Assembly: GCF_900112205.1 (NCBI RefSeq)
Contig: NZ_FOKW01000002.1
Span: forward strand, 372,001 to 436,000
Reading direction: 5' to 3'
Source of the DNA: Natronobacterium haloterrestre
Lineage (GTDB): Archaea > Halobacteriota > Halobacteria > Halobacteriales > Natrialbaceae
DNA length: 64,000 nucleotides
The translations under genes were made by a program, and so were the position numbers. Under the pieces are notes generated by a model, which was given only the letters and a program-made list of their open reading frames with translations, did not search any database and was not told the origin of the DNA. Below, piece after piece: positions 25,563 through 31,033 of the stretch (positions are counted from its first letter, which is position 1; every line of letters begins with the position of its first letter).

Positions 25563-26078
25563 ATGGCGACCGACCGCCGGGAGTTCGTGGCCGACGACCT
25601 CTGGCTCCTGATCGGGATCGTCACGCTGGCGACGATCTCGCTGCTGGGCATGCTCGGCCTCGATTCGGTTACGGGGTTCGTCGCGGTCGTGGGGTGGTTC
25701 CTCCTGACGCCGATCTTCCTGTTCTGGGGCGACGAGATCGCCGCCCTGCTGTTCGATGCGGACCGCAGTGGGGGCCGACAACGGGAGACGCGAGCCCGGA
25801 ACACCGGCCACGGGACGGGCGAGGACGACGCGATCGCCGAACTCAAACGCCGATACGCGGAAGGCGAGATCGACGACGCGGAGTTCGAACGTCGCCTCGA
25901 GCGCCTCGTCGGAGTCGAGGAAGCGCTCGAGACGGTGTTCCCCGATCGTCGAGGAGAGGGGGACGGCGAGCGGGTGCGACGGAAGGGGACGCGCGACCGG
26001 GGGGAGCGGGAGGGGGAGGAGGTGGGGGAGCGAGAGAGGGTCCCAGAACGGGAGCGTGAACGCGATCTGGAAGGCTAA
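25563..26078 (+). CDS. SHOCT domain membrane protein
   Basis: Two membrane helices at about residues 12-34 and 38-60 are followed by a linker and a SHOCT element, AIAELKRRYAEGEIDDAEFERRLERL (typed in part), at about residues 95-118. A strongly charged, repetitive tail (RERVPERERERDLEG) closes the protein. SHOCT elements are short oligomerisation or membrane-association modules, often at the C-terminus of haloarchaeal membrane proteins. The exact role is unknown. The gene is convergent with moeA, with a repeat element in the gap. Confidence 0.8.
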   Translation: MATDRREFVADDLWLLIGIVTLATISLLGMLGLDSVTGFVAVVGWFLLTPIFLFWGDEIAALLFDADRSGGRQRETRARNTGHGTGEDDAIAELKRRYAEGEIDDAEFERRLERLVGVEEALETVFPDRRGEGDGERVRRKGTRDRGEREGEEVGERERVPERERERDLEG

Positions 26079-26116
26079 CGCCAGTCAGATCCCGACTCAT
26101 ACGGATTGCTGTACCC

Positions 26117-26183
26117 GACATCCCGGCGCGACCGCCGCCCTGGTCGTGGTTGCGCCGGAACTGACGGACAGGAAACCGTATCA
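26117..26183. repeat. Intergenic repeat element, copy A
   Basis: A 67-base stretch starting GACATCCCGGCGCGACCGCC matches 29805-29871 (copy B) at about 55 of 67 positions. A perfectly shared GCGCCGGAACTGACGGACAG core sits near its right half. This copy spans the gap between convergent genes and reaches the moeA stop codon. The meaning is unknown. Confidence 0.6.
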
Positions 26184-27458
26184 GGGATTGACCTCCCAGT
26201 CCTGCACCGCGACCGTCTCTCCCTCGGGAACTCCCTCACGGTCGTCGTCGACGACCACCCAGCCGTCGGCCAGGGCGACGCTCGAGAGCACGCCCGAACC
26301 GCTCGCCCGGGTCGGGATCGCACGGTAATCGGGCCCTTCTTCGCCGTCTCGCTCCTCGAGCCGGACCCGCGCGAACGTTCGCGTTCCGGGCTCGCTCGGG
26401 ATCTTGCGATCGAGGACCGCCGGCGTCGTCGGATGGGGGTCCGGGGTCGTCCCCTCGAGCCAGCGCAGCGTCGGCCGGAGGAACTGGACCGCGTTGACGA
26501 TGCAGGCGACGGGGTAGCCGGGCAGGGCGAGCACCGGCGTCTCCTCGACGATGCCGAGACAGACCGGGTGGCCGGGTTTGAGGCCGACGCCGTGGACGAG
26601 CACCTCGCCGAGGTCGTCGATCACCTCGGGGAGGAGGTCCCGCTCGCCGACCGACGAGCCGCCGGTGGTGACGACGACGTCTTTCGTCAAATCGCGCTGG
26701 ATCGCGACCCGGAGCGACTCGGAGTCGTCGGTGACGACGTCGCGGTAGGTCGCCCGCCCGCCCCACCGCTCGGCCAGCCGTGAGACCGTGAGGCCGTTGG
26801 TCTCGACCACTTCGCCCGGTCCCGGATCGGCGTCGACCAGTTCCTCGCCGGTCGGGATCACGCCGACTGTCGGGCGCTTCGCGACGTCGACCCGGCCGTA
26901 GCCGGCGGAGCGCAACAGCCCCAGGTCCGACGGCCGGAGCCGGTGGCCGGCGTCGTAGAGATGCTGACCCTCCGCGACGTCCTCGCCGATCGGCGCGACG
27001 TTCTCGCCCTCGGCGACGGCGTCCTCGACCTCGACGCCATCCCCGAGTTCCTCGACCCGTTCGATCATCACGACGGCGTTCGTTCCCTCCGGGAGCGCGC
27101 TGCCCGTGTGGACCCGCGCGGCCGCGCCGGGCGGGACGCTGACGTCGTCCTCGGCGCTGCCGGCGACCCGCAGTCGCTCCGGGGAGCGGTCGCTCGCCCC
27201 GAAGGTATCCTCCGCCCGAACGGCGTAGCCGTCCATCGCGGCCCGGCGGTAGTGAGGAACGTTCCGGGCCGACTCGACGGGCGCGGCGAGGACGCGCCCG
27301 TCCGCGCTCGCTACGTCGACCGTCTCGAGGCCCGTCGGCGGGGATTCGTCGGCGTCCAGGCGTTCCTCGAGCGCCGCCCGGAGTTCCCGCCGGGCCTCGT
27401 CGACCGGCGTCCGTACCTTGAACCCGGCGTCGGTTCGTTCGCTATCGGCACCTTTCAT
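26181..27458 (-). CDS. moeA: Molybdopterin molybdenumtransferase MoeA (stand-alone paralogue)
   Basis: A 425-residue MoeA with HYRRAAMDGYAVRAEDTF, VHTGSALPEGTNAVVMIE, VGVIPTGEELV, VVTTGGSSVGERDLL, GVGLKPGHPVCLG and ALPGYPVACIVN covers the full active site. Unlike the copy at 13491-15347 it has no binding-protein-like extension. Archaea with two MoeA proteins may use them for molybdenum and tungsten separately; that assignment is inference here. The ATG at 27456-27458 gives MKGADSERTD. An upstream in-frame start at 27500 would add a tail I do not find convincing. Confidence 0.92.
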   Translation of the reverse strand: MKGADSERTDAGFKVRTPVDEARRELRAALEERLDADESPPTGLETVDVASADGRVLAAPVESARNVPHYRRAAMDGYAVRAEDTFGASDRSPERLRVAGSAEDDVSVPPGAAARVHTGSALPEGTNAVVMIERVEELGDGVEVEDAVAEGENVAPIGEDVAEGQHLYDAGHRLRPSDLGLLRSAGYGRVDVAKRPTVGVIPTGEELVDADPGPGEVVETNGLTVSRLAERWGGRATYRDVVTDDSESLRVAIQRDLTKDVVVTTGGSSVGERDLLPEVIDDLGEVLVHGVGLKPGHPVCLGIVEETPVLALPGYPVACIVNAVQFLRPTLRWLEGTTPDPHPTTPAVLDRKIPSEPGTRTFARVRLEERDGEEGPDYRAIPTRASGSGVLSSVALADGWVVVDDDREGVPEGETVAVQDWEVNP

Positions 27459-27538
27459 ACTCTCACTCGGGTCGTCCGAAGGGAAAAAGCGTCGGGGCAT
27501 CCGCCCGGCGAGGGGACGAATCGACCGCTACCGCGGCC

Positions 27539-27546
27539 TTTTTCGT
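27539..27546 (+). promoter_or_regulatory. TATA-like element for the Hsp20 gene
   Basis: TTTTTCGT lies about 25 bases before the ATG at 27569, which fits a leaderless transcript. Confidence 0.4.
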
Positions 27547-27568
27547 ATCGGCGTTCGAACCAGTAGCT

Positions 27569-28105
27569 ATGTCAGCGCTCCGCGACGCGTTGCGGGACCT
27601 CTCCGAGGACGTTTTCTTCGATCTGCTCGAGAGCGACGACGCCTATCTGCTCGTCGTGGACGTGCCGGGAGTGACCGCCGAATCGATCGACCTCACCATC
27701 GAGGACGGGACCCTGTCGATCGACGCCAGGCGCGTGAAAGACCGGGACGTCCCCGACGAGTACCAGTACATCGAGGAGAACCGGTCGCTGTTTTTCGACG
27801 TCACCCTCCCGATCCCCAAGGACGCGATTCCGGGGAACGCGGAGACGGCGGTCGAGCGGGGCGTCCTCGAGTTGACGCTGCCGAAACGCGGCGGCGGAGA
27901 GACGAAGATCGAAGTGGTCGACGATGCCGACGTCGATTCGTCGGCGACCGGTGCCCGTGACGAGGGGGGCGACGACGGGAACGGAACTGCGGCCCGGGAT
28001 GCGGATACGGATACTGATACGGATACGGATACTGATACGGATGCGAACGGGGGGACGGAGACGGACAACTCCGACGAGACGACCGACGACGCCGAATCGA
28101 GGTGA
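27569..28105 (+). CDS. Hsp20/alpha-crystallin small heat-shock protein
   Basis: The alpha-crystallin domain covers about residues 20-115. YLLVVDVPGVTAESIDLTIED and the signature GVLELTLPKR are visible, and an I-x-V motif (KIEVVD) follows. It should form oligomers that hold unfolding proteins. The C-terminal tail (about 140-178) is an acidic DTDTDTDT tract encoded by eight hexamers at 27998-28045, which looks like replication-slippage growth. The stop overlaps a GTG (GTGA at 28102) that is the probable original start of the next gene. Confidence 0.9.
   Translation: MSALRDALRDLSEDVFFDLLESDDAYLLVVDVPGVTAESIDLTIEDGTLSIDARRVKDRDVPDEYQYIEENRSLFFDVTLPIPKDAIPGNAETAVERGVLELTLPKRGGGETKIEVVDDADVDSSATGARDEGGDDGNGTAARDADTDTDTDTDTDTDANGGTETDNSDETTDDAESR
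27998..28045 (+). repeat. Hexanucleotide tandem repeat inside the Hsp20 gene
   Basis: Eight units of GAT followed by ACG, ACT or GCG run without a break. They encode alternating Asp-Thr (and Asp-Ala) in the C-terminal tail. Copy number is likely to vary between strains. Confidence 0.85.
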
Positions 28106-28171
28106 CCGAGACTGGCCTCCCTCCGAGCGTACAAACGCTTCGTCCTCGTCGCCTGGCAGTTCCTGCCCCTG

Positions 28172-29788
28172 TTGCTCGCCTACGCCCGCGACCGTCGTCG
28201 GTTCCTCCTGTTCGGACGGCCCAGGCGGGTCAGTCCCGAGACGCATCGCCACCGCGCGGAGGTGTTGCTCGAGTCCCTGCTCACCCTCGGGCCGACGTTC
28301 ATCAAACTCGGCCAGCTCCTGTCGACCCGGCCCGACGTCCTGCCCCCCGAGTACATCGACGTCCTCTCGTCGCTACAGGACGACGTCCCGCCGGCCGGCT
28401 GGGACGGTGCGAAACGCGTCCTCGAGGACGAAATCGGGCCGGTCGACGAACGGTTCGCCGCCTTCGACACGGACCCGATCAGCGGCGCGAGTCTCGGACA
28501 GGTCTACCGGGCCCAGCTCGACGACGATGGCGGGACGCGCGACGTCGCCGTCAAGATCCGCCGTCCCGGCGTCGAGGAACTGGTGCAGGCGGACCTGCGG
28601 GTGATCCACTGGTCGCTGCCGGTCCTGCTGTACTTCGTCGACGACGCCCGGTCGTTCTCGCTCGAGAACCTCGCGGACGAGTTCTCGAAGACGATCCGTG
28701 AGGAGATGGACTACCAGCGCGAGGCGGAGATGCTCCGGGAGATCCAGGCCAGCATCGGGACCGACGACCGCTACGTCATCCCGGACGTCGTCGACAGCCA
28801 CTCGGGGCCGCGTGTGCTCACGATGGAATACATCGACGGCACCAAGATCAACGACGTCGAGGAACTCGACCGCAAGGGGATCGACCGCAGCCGAATCGCG
28901 GAGGACCTCCAGTGGGCCTACATGCGGATGATCATCGACGACGGCGTCTTCCACGCCGATCCCCACCCCGGGAATCTGGCCGTGACCGACGAGGGCCGGA
29001 TCGTCTTCTACGACTTCGGGATGTCGGGCCGGGTCGACGAGTTCGTCCAGGACAAGATCGTCGAGTTCTACATCGCGGTCGCGAACCAGGACATCGACGC
29101 CATCCTCGACGCCCTCATCGAGATCGGGACGCTCTCGCCGGAGGCCGACCGGGCGGTGATGGCCGAGGTGATGGAACTGGCGATTCAGGACGCCCGCGGC
29201 GAGGACATCGAGCAGTACCGCGTCCAGCAGATCATCGGGCAGGTCGAGGACTCGATCTACGAGTTCCCCCTGCGGCTGCCGAAGAACCTCGCGCTCGTGT
29301 TGCGGGTCGCGACGGTCGTCGAGGGCGTCTGCGTGACGCTCGATCCCGAGTTCGACTTCATCTCGACGGCGACCGACTACCTGGTCGAGCAGGGGTACCG
29401 CGAGGAGTCGATCCGGCAGTACCTCTCGGAGTCCGGCCAGCAGGTCCGGCGGTCGGCCGAATCGCTGACCCGGATCGCCCCCAAGACGGAACGGGCCCTC
29501 GACCGCCTCGATCGGGACGACCTCTACGTCCGGATCGGCGTCGAGGACTCGAAAAACGTCTTCGAGAATCTGGCGAAACGGCTCATCTACGGGATGTTGC
29601 TCACGATGGGGCTGTTCTCGACCGGCGTGCTGTACGCCCTCGAGGCCCCGGAGGGGTCGATCGTGGCGGCCGTGTTCTCGGCCGTCGTGTTGATCCAGCT
29701 CTACCGGTCGTTCCGGACCCAGCGCGCGCTCGCCGCCCGTCCGCAGTTCACGCGCCAGAACCTCCGGCAGCGACGCCGCGAGGAGTGA
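28172..29788 (+). CDS. UbiB/ABC1 (AarF) family atypical kinase; 5' end disrupted or mis-framed
   Basis: The protein has the family KxGQ motif TFIKLGQLLSTRPDVLPPEY, the A-rich-like SGASLGQVYRA, AVKIRRPGVEEL, the FHADPHPGNL catalytic loop and YDFGMSGR. A hydrophobic C-terminus (GMLLTMGLFSTGVLYAL and AVFSAVVLIQL) gives one or two membrane helices. Members support quinone or isoprenoid lipid metabolism at the membrane. The first usable start in frame is the TTG at 28172. Family homology (SLRAYKRFVLVAWQFLPLL) extends upstream to about 28112 with no start codon other than CTG. The natural start is probably the GTG at 28102, one base out of frame; see findings. Confidence 0.85.
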   Translation: MLAYARDRRRFLLFGRPRRVSPETHRHRAEVLLESLLTLGPTFIKLGQLLSTRPDVLPPEYIDVLSSLQDDVPPAGWDGAKRVLEDEIGPVDERFAAFDTDPISGASLGQVYRAQLDDDGGTRDVAVKIRRPGVEELVQADLRVIHWSLPVLLYFVDDARSFSLENLADEFSKTIREEMDYQREAEMLREIQASIGTDDRYVIPDVVDSHSGPRVLTMEYIDGTKINDVEELDRKGIDRSRIAEDLQWAYMRMIIDDGVFHADPHPGNLAVTDEGRIVFYDFGMSGRVDEFVQDKIVEFYIAVANQDIDAILDALIEIGTLSPEADRAVMAEVMELAIQDARGEDIEQYRVQQIIGQVEDSIYEFPLRLPKNLALVLRVATVVEGVCVTLDPEFDFISTATDYLVEQGYREESIRQYLSESGQQVRRSAESLTRIAPKTERALDRLDRDDLYVRIGVEDSKNVFENLAKRLIYGMLLTMGLFSTGVLYALEAPEGSIVAAVFSAVVLIQLYRSFRTQRALAARPQFTRQNLRQRRREE

Positions 29789-29804
29789 TGCGGATCCCTG
29801 TCCC

Positions 29805-29871
29805 GATGTCCCGGTGCAACTGCCGCCCGGGTCGCGGTCGCGCCGGAACTGACGGACAGTACACCGTACGA
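29805..29871. repeat. Intergenic repeat element, copy B
   Basis: Starts GATGTCCCGGTGCAACTGCC and aligns without gaps to 26117-26183. It lies 16 bases after the UbiB-like gene and before the enolase-superfamily gene. Read on the plus strand both copies encode a similar PGATAA..V.VAPELTD string, but neither has a credible start and stop. Confidence 0.6.
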
Positions 29872-29953
29872 GTCCCGGAGCGCGAACGCGGCGAGGGCCG
29901 ACCGGAATCCGATCCGTGCGAATCCTCTTGTCACTGGCAATCGATGGTTCCGT

Positions 29954-31033
29954 ATGACGTACGATCGACTCGCCGATTTGGGCCTCGAGATCGACGCCGT
30001 CTCGACGGAGCGACTCGAGCGCGACACCTCGAGCGACTTCACCAGGACGACGACGGAGGTACGCCTCGCGGGGCCGTCGGAGGGGACGGCCACGACGGGC
30101 GTCGGCGAGGACGTCACCTACGAGACCGCTGATCACGATCGACTCGCCGAGACCGGACTCCCGGAGAGCGAACTGGTCGGCGAGTTCACCCTCGCGTCGT
30201 TCGCCGACACCGTCGCCGACCTCGATCTCTTTCCCGGGAAGGCGCCCGACCGCGAGGTATTCCGGAACTACCGGCGGTGGGCCGTCGAGAGCGCGGCCCT
30301 GGATCTGGCCTGCCGGCAGGCGGGGACCGACGTCGCGACCGCGCTGGACCGATCACTCGAGCCGGTGTCGTTCGTCGCGAGCACCAGGCTCGGCGACCCG
30401 CCGACGGTCGACCGCCTCGAGCGGTTGCGCGAGCGGGTCCCGGACCTCCAGTTCAAACTCGATCCGACCCCGGAGTGGGACCGTGACCTCGTTGCGACCA
30501 TCGACGACGCCGTCGGGGCCGAGAACGTCCGTATCCTCGATCTGAAAGGGCAGTACGAGGGGACGGACGTCGACGTGCCGGCCGACCCCGATCTGTACGA
30601 ACTCGTCCTCGAGGCGTTCCCGGCCGCCGTCGTCGAGGACCCGGCGCTGACCGGGGAGACGGAACCGCTGTTCGAGGACCCCGACGTCCGCGAGCGGGTC
30701 TCCTGGGACGCGCCGATCCACGGCCTCGAGGACGTCCGGAACCTGCCGTGGGAACCCGAGTGGCTGAACGTCAAACCCTCGCGGTTCGGCTCGCTCGAGT
30801 CGCTGCTCGAGACGATCGAGTACTGCCGGGAGCGGGACGTCTCCCTGTACGGCGGCGGCCAGTTCGAACTCGGCGTCGGTCGCGGCCAGATCCAGACACT
30901 CGCCGCGCTGTTCTACCCCGACGAACCCAACGACGTCGCGCCCGGCGTCTACAACGACCCCGCGGTCGCGGACGACCTGCCGACGAGCCCGCTCGCGACG
31001 CCGGCCGACCCAACTGGGTTCCGCTGGGAGTGA
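29954..31033 (+). CDS. Enolase-superfamily (mandelate racemase/muconate cycloisomerase-like) protein
   Basis: The 359-residue protein has a capping N-terminal domain and then barrel elements: LQFKLDPTPEWD near residue 180, a metal-ligand-like VRILDLKGQYEG near 200, VVEDPALTGETEP near 235 and LNVKPSRFGSLE near 280. The C-terminus has LYGGGQFELGVGRGQIQ. The usual KxK and three carboxylate ligands are only partly recognisable, so the reaction cannot be assigned and reduced activity is possible. It is followed after 205 bases by the zinc dehydrogenase, which has its own promoter. Confidence 0.75.
   Translation: MTYDRLADLGLEIDAVSTERLERDTSSDFTRTTTEVRLAGPSEGTATTGVGEDVTYETADHDRLAETGLPESELVGEFTLASFADTVADLDLFPGKAPDREVFRNYRRWAVESAALDLACRQAGTDVATALDRSLEPVSFVASTRLGDPPTVDRLERLRERVPDLQFKLDPTPEWDRDLVATIDDAVGAENVRILDLKGQYEGTDVDVPADPDLYELVLEAFPAAVVEDPALTGETEPLFEDPDVRERVSWDAPIHGLEDVRNLPWEPEWLNVKPSRFGSLESLLETIEYCRERDVSLYGGGQFELGVGRGQIQTLAALFYPDEPNDVAPGVYNDPAVADDLPTSPLATPADPTGFRWE

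Follow-up and report, generated by a model that had tools for sequence, protein, structure and literature searches.

A mobile hairpin element of about 80 bp, often placed on stop codons, in Natronobacterium haloterrestre and other haloarchaea

Two copies of a short imperfect palindrome lie in the 64,000-nucleotide stretch of Natronobacterium haloterrestre contig NZ_FOKW01000002.1 analyzed here (positions 372,001–436,000 of the forward strand; hereafter, the window). The palindrome belongs to an element that is mobile inserted DNA with a 3-bp target duplication, and we consider it highly probable that this is a non-autonomous transposable element ∼80 bp long. Insertion, the 3-bp duplication, a near-constant length of young copies, covarying inverted arms, and placement on stop codons are each supported directly. 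Copy 1 (26097–26183, + strand) comprises an 81-bp hairpin element (26100–26180) with TCA on each side (26097–26099 and 26181–26183), the right TCA being the stop codon TGA of a minus-strand moeA-type gene. Copy 2 (29786–29871, + strand) comprises an 80-bp hairpin element (29789–29868) between a TGA (29786–29788), which is the stop codon of an ABC1 atypical-kinase gene, and a CGA (29869–29871), which from its sequence is read as a probable decayed duplicate of that triplet.

The genome from which the window comes is designated G000, with G numbers denoting genomes and L numbers denoting loci. A covariance model built from 18 of 20 copies in this genome (L001 and L008, which carry deletions, were omitted) gave 135 matches over both strands of G000 at E values up to 1, which reduce to 71 copies, the weakest two with E values of 0.03 and 0.13. 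Outside these 71 are two weak extra model matches in L001 and one core match with three mismatches and no model match (C15:49577). Identical triplets flank 35 of the 71 copies, compared with a mean of 15.6 and a maximum of 26 in 10,000 shuffles, and where TNA is found on both sides (37 copies), the two triplets agree in 35. The duplicated triplets are TGA or TCA, with a single TAA. The named relatives contribute 80 loci among the matches listed (at least 118 stretches; three of the 80 loci, from Thalassotalea, Psychromonas, and Acidobacteria, were dropped) and a set of 88 copies for which lengths of 74–96 bp were allowed and at least 22 of 34 arm positions had to be complementary. In this set, equal triplets occur in 78 copies (43 TCA and 35 TGA), and the young-copy length of 79 or 80 bp is seen in 83. 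A looser selection from the named relatives yields 109 end pairs, 81 of them at 79–80 bp, with equal triplets in 79 of the 88 short ones, and copies picked by 17 left-arm bases only have equal triplets in 70 of 82 cases when the best of four lengths is taken.

The site of copy 2 is empty in G081, a close relative whose ABC1 protein is 98% identical to that of the window. G081 reads GAGGAG-TGA-TTCCCGGAGC at this site, and the window reads GAGGAG-TGA, element, CGA, and then GTCCCGGAGC; thus, the element and one triplet are extra in the window, and the base after the triplet also differs. The right anchor of the empty site is the next open reading frame (ORF; 29954–31033, + strand), which is tentatively labeled menC and has no Pfam match at 1e-5. 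Ten further G000 insertions, eight of them from a young near-identical subfamily, were checked in G081; five sites are contiguous and empty (L030, L064, L065, L068, and L075) and five are occupied, so that six sites including that of copy 2 are empty in a close relative, with a single triplet remaining. The moeA–Hsp20–ABC1 gene order is conserved in the 20 relatives compared, and model matches at E values up to 0.1 are present in 6 of 20 moeA–ABC1 regions (two of them weak and from the same genome). In G061 and G060, the ABC1 stop codon carries an element copy of their own.

Two altered forms were seen near the same genes. Behind the ABC1 gene of G038 (L110, 7246–7431), an element with TGA on both sides holds an additional insert that has inverted ends of its own, GGGATTATCGTAG; this longer copy was rejected as a candidate autonomous element, as its extra length comes from the second insert nested in a single unit. 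After a moeA-type gene in G083 (L093), a remnant, TGATACGGACGGCAGCAAT, lies at the stop codon and resembles an internally deleted element.

In terms of placement, 49 of the 71 own-genome copies sit on a stop codon by gene call, compared with 12.5% of the noncoding TGA/TCA sites at the same loci (p = 3e-28). By codon score the number is 52 of 71; that rule misses copy 2, for which the opposite strand scores 0.02 higher, and this copy is counted by gene call. Among the named relatives, 39 of 88 copies are on a stop codon against a background of 10.1% (p = 2e-16), and 15 of 20 are so placed in G015 under a looser rule. A left TGA with a right CGA, the arrangement of copy 2, is found in 11 of the 71 own-genome copies, as though the triplet that does not serve as a stop were prone to decay. 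At 112 sites, the consensus of the target is GAC-TGA-G; since Asp codons before TGA stops look coding-like, a preference of the enzyme and purifying selection are inseparable in this consensus.

The element folds into a 5-bp outer helix, a mismatch (mostly A-A), a 9-bp helix, a 4 × 4 internal loop (most often CGAT/TGAC), a 16-bp helix, and a short loop. Across 163 elements of 79 or 80 bp (28 of 191 were dropped for other lengths), positions 1–5, 7–15, and most of 20–35 are paired between the two arms, A-A occupies position 6 in 96, and positions 16–19 form the 4 × 4 loop, most often as C-C, G-A, A-G, and T-T. The outer five pairs are standard in 88–100% of these elements, a set mostly prefiltered for inverted arms (beyond the G000 and named-relatives sets, equal triplets and inverted arms were required, and 24 of 30 order-level loci passed), and they are also present in own-genome copies. 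In copies of G221, G301, and G334, the outer TACGG/CCGTA is swapped for TAGTG/CACTA.

Covariation was assessed with 22 diverse sequences from across the order. In these, 90.4% of cells are paired and two-sided changes occur in 20 of 30 pairs, a result as high as which was reached in none of 500 shuffles; covariation is 0.449, compared with 0.026–0.169 when the partner is slid by 1–3 columns, at which the paired cells amount to 23–49%. Most of the 22 sequences had been chosen with a palindrome filter, which lessens the force of this result, and for this reason the inner-pair test was redone on 82 unfiltered copies. There, 13.7 of 16 inner positions are paired, compared with 11.1 with swapped arms and a maximum of 11.9 in 200 shuffles. 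Since the sequence of the stem changes while pairing is kept across the order, the hairpin itself seems to matter.

The element is found within and beyond the family. Matches at E values up to 0.001 occur in 95 of 125 family genomes (35 candidates scored per genome), and a sample of 293 genomes from the order gave matches at 1e-6 in 89, of which 44 belong to other families (15 candidates scored per genome). The contrast between congeners can be sharp, as G015 has 97 and 102 end-pattern matches on its two strands whereas G016 has no model match. Eight near-identical copies attest to recent activity in G000, and 11 plasmid records match the element. The 20-mer common to the two window copies has no match in viral contigs, and phages gave no match. 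Viral carriage was also pursued with three end patterns and rejected: these gave 5, 16, and 24 viral stretches, none with a second arm, which were therefore taken as chance.

An earlier note on this DNA had described the two copies as a repeat of ∼67 bp in two gene gaps. The paired stretches (26117–26183 and 29805–29871) are indeed identical at 55 of 67 positions (82%) without gaps, both lie in gene gaps, and the common 20-mer has exactly two occurrences in the window; with up to three mismatches, 0.02 occurrences are expected, and two matches were reached in 0 of 100 shuffles. The repeat is thus real, and its ∼67-bp extent was drawn too narrowly. The covariance model extends over 26097–26184 and 29786–29872, and reading of the ends gives the 81- and 80-bp cores above, so that the repeat unit is the imperfect palindrome plus one triplet per side, with ends TACGG...CCGTA (TGCGG at copy 2). 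The guess of a small dispersed repeat was correct, given ∼70 copies in the own genome and relatives in three quarters of the family genomes. A search of the whole genome with the 20-base core returned 47 matches with up to three mismatches and none for a reversed-pattern control, and these many further copies exclude a repeat confined to the window. A former or hidden coding role, also proposed there, was rejected, as the 71 copies include lengths of every class modulo 3 (10, 24, and 37 copies) and stops are absent from the suggested frame in 39 of 71 copies, compared with 32 and 32 for the other two frames. Over the 17 codons of the PGATAA..VAPELTD reading, the two copies differ at five third and three second positions. 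Curated Rfam covariance models had no match at E values up to 1 in window positions 26000–30000.

Orthologous sites in G000 and G081 are often both occupied. For 11 of 13 high-scoring copies in G081, the corresponding site among the G000 loci is also occupied; once L067 is included, identities of the paired elements run from 0.64 to 1.00, and at an arbitrary cut of 0.85, 4 of the 12 pairs are the same and 8 differ. In six of the eight differing pairs (0.78–0.84), the difference may reflect fast divergence, partly through loop flipping. Elements clearly differ at L062 and L063 (a different subfamily; 0.64 and 0.74), at the site of window copy 1, where the G081 version is 77% identical to it, and at L072. 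There, the same TCA is occupied by the 80-bp form in one sister genome and by a 107-bp member of a second family in G081. In G083, the joined flanks of L062 and of L063 match contiguously, with 72% and 75% identity. Seven G080 copies have no long flank match in the G000 loci, apart from one 104-base match that lies away from the element. Comparison by eye of the orthologous sites L056/L398 and L031/L396 reveals the apical loop inverted with the arms unchanged, and the sequences suggest inverted-repeat recombination behind such flipped loops. Sites with differing elements might reflect more than one insertion at a single stop codon or an in-place replacement of the element.

The second family of mobile hairpins (type B) is ∼107 bp long, has ends TACTGTYGGACAG..., and shows the same TGA/TCA duplication at several copies. 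Copies are located at L378 (1399–1505), L034 (2428–2534), L207 (6348–6454), L209 (2723–2829), and L301 (1264–1370), with further matches at L312, L316, and L323, and four copies folded as RNA have z values of −6.3 to −8.5. At L209 and L250, 80-bp elements are nested within the 107-bp type at TGA, and thus one family uses the other as a target. We tentatively propose that haloarchaea contain hairpin cassettes of at least two forms (80 bp and the ∼107-bp type B), placed on stop codons by one putative enzyme that would recognize the folded DNA and not a set sequence, with repeated use of the same stop or swapping in place; we would put this at somewhat short of even likelihood.

A mechanism consistent with these observations would involve an enzyme supplied in trans that recognizes the ends of the element or its folded hairpin, cuts targets similar to GAC-TGA-G with a 3-bp stagger, and inserts the element at the cut. 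As the target would often be a stop codon, the duplication would restore the stop, so that the gene would be left unharmed and the copy could persist. Any effect of the hairpin on the 3′ end of the mRNA would be secondary. The 3-bp length of the duplication is more suggestive of a DDE-type enzyme than of the HUH enzymes proposed for REPINs.

Several results weigh against a transposable element of this kind. No transposase or autonomous parent was found, although no search was aimed at Y1, IS630, IS200, or other families. PF01609 gave 53 matches, and in the 30 loci inspected there is no gene flanked by element ends and no other pair of TNA-flanked inverted ends (at least 14 of 20 bases); at one of them, L150, an ordinary short element copy adjoins the gene. 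PF13586 gave one match, below the cutoff, in 12 genomes, and PF13359 gave none in 15. Clustering of 554 neighboring ORFs produced ten clusters from at least three loci, which by eye look like common families, with no recognized transposase. The end matches listed for G015, G034, G011, and G061 include none that bound a longer element with a recognizable transposase; in G061, two end matches spanning 4 kb, with triplets that agree, were considered as the bounds of an autonomous element and rejected, as no enclosed ORF is recognizable as a transposase (the ORFs are presumably cox3-like and oxidoreductase genes). With regard to placement, gene calls put no stop codon at 49 of the 88 named-relative copies, and a called gene encloses 4 of the 71 own-genome copies and 4 of the 88. 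The structural or RNA role that the earlier note had raised, and for which it had pointed to covariation, is supported in part, with covarying pairs across the order and hardly any within G000 (1 of 21 predicted pairs; covariation term +0.51). Copy 1 folds well (z = −4.98 as RNA and −4.52 as DNA), whereas the RNA fold of copy 2 is little above shuffles (z = −0.79 with flanks and −2.06 without) and its DNA fold is not above them (z = 0.32). Given the poor own-genome covariation and the fold of copy 2, older copies look like decaying hairpins.

The element could instead be a classical miniature inverted-repeat transposable element (MITE) of the IS5/PIF-Harbinger kind, moved by a parent transposase through its terminal repeats, with the hairpin as a by-product. 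IS5/PIF-Harbinger elements generate a 3-bp TNA duplication, and the TGA/TCA duplication (preceded by C and followed by G), the terminal inverted repeats, zero coding capacity, and high copy number would all be expected of such a MITE. The lack of a parent among the end matches of the four genomes and the PF13359 and PF13586 results speak against it, as does the covarying inner stem, which an enzyme that reads the ends would not need; we regard it as possible, at less than an even chance. The covariation itself could be unrelated to selection on the hairpin if paired changes arise by inverted-repeat recombination or template switching between the arms, and the apical loop does occur by eye in both orientations, among copies and between the orthologous sites named above. 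Such exchange should, however, erase the usually unpaired position 6 and the 4 × 4 loop, and both stay mostly unpaired while their neighbors covary, which makes this origin unlikely.

Movement of a REPIN-like element by a REP-associated transposase of the HUH, Y1 class, acting on single-stranded hairpins, appears quite improbable, as a 3-bp target duplication is unexpected from enzymes of that class. The architecture, including conserved spacer length and compensatory changes, is like that reported for REPINs (PMC3116915). A nonmobile, conserved 3′-end signal, that is, a terminator or mRNA-stabilizing hairpin behind stop codons, would account for the stop-codon position and the covarying hairpin, and a hairpin tested in Haloferax volcanii is reported to have terminated transcription, with lower efficiency than a T stretch (PMC7237163). 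The empty sites in the sister genome, the duplicated triplets, the ∼100 end-pattern matches per strand in G015 versus no model match in its congener, and the lack of a T-run at the right end of copies (by eye) render this very improbable, and a vertically inherited terminator as the origin of the element was rejected on the basis of the empty sites.

REPINs are reported to be short extragenic hairpin DNAs with many copies, conserved spacer length, compensatory changes, and no enzyme gene inside (PMC3116915), and the element shares a hairpin with compensatory changes, a conserved length, an extragenic location, many copies, and the absence of an internal enzyme gene. Most REPs are reported to have a GTAG or CGTC tag at one end, and GTAG REPs often to supply a TAG stop codon to the neighboring gene (PMC3733652). 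In contrast, the element is without either tag and by eye ends in TACGG...CCGTA or TAGTG...CACTA with TGA/TCA outside; its TGA/TCA 3-bp duplication, GAC-TGA-G target, and archaeal host also differ, in a comparison made by description and not by sequence. The element resembles MITEs in its terminal inverted repeats, 3-bp TNA-type duplication, and lack of coding capacity and differs from them in that no parent was found, young copies are a near-constant 79–80 bp, and the element in its entirety forms a covarying hairpin whose internal loop is fixed.

The SMRs of Haloquadratum walsbyi (the 80-bp HqIRS41 and others of ∼110 bp) are reported to have inverted ends and no known transposon parent, to lack a target duplication, and to target other mobile elements, and haloarchaeal PATEs, which are related to IS605-type transposons, to have neither terminal inverted repeats nor target duplications (PMC3119063). 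The element is, like SMRs, haloarchaeal, of similar size, and with inverted ends and no known parent, but it duplicates its target triplet, a distinction from SMRs drawn by description only. With PATEs it shares a palindrome, the absence of a transposase, and mobility, whereas its terminal inverted repeats and target duplication set it apart. In its workings the element is closest to a REPIN, and in appearance it resembles a MITE; it is filed under neither because one feature of each is lacking or not settled. Among the open-access papers listed in literature searches, no title or beginning of an abstract recognizably describes it, which is weak evidence of absence as subscription papers mostly fall outside.

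If our reading is true, haloarchaea carry widespread mobile DNA that spares genes by inserting at stop codons, a hairpin lies behind dozens of genes per genome (about 50 in G000), and bacterial REPINs would have in this element an archaeal counterpart with a differing insertion chemistry. The near-identical young copies and clean empty sites make the enzyme and any effects on mRNA 3′ ends directly testable.

The neighboring genes of the window are as follows. The moeA-type gene (26181–27500, − strand; PF03453, PF00994, and PF03454) ends in the target triplet of copy 1, and a SHOCT-domain ORF (25563–26078, + strand) lies upstream of copy 1, convergent with the moeA-type gene. The ABC1 atypical-kinase gene (28172–29788, + strand; PF03109; start codon uncertain), for which ubiB is our working label, ends in the target triplet of copy 2 and is matched in 124 of 125 family genomes. 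In the Hsp20 gene, at about 28000–28050 and at a place with no model match, an Asp-Thr repeat has TGATACGGAT, which resembles the left end of the element.

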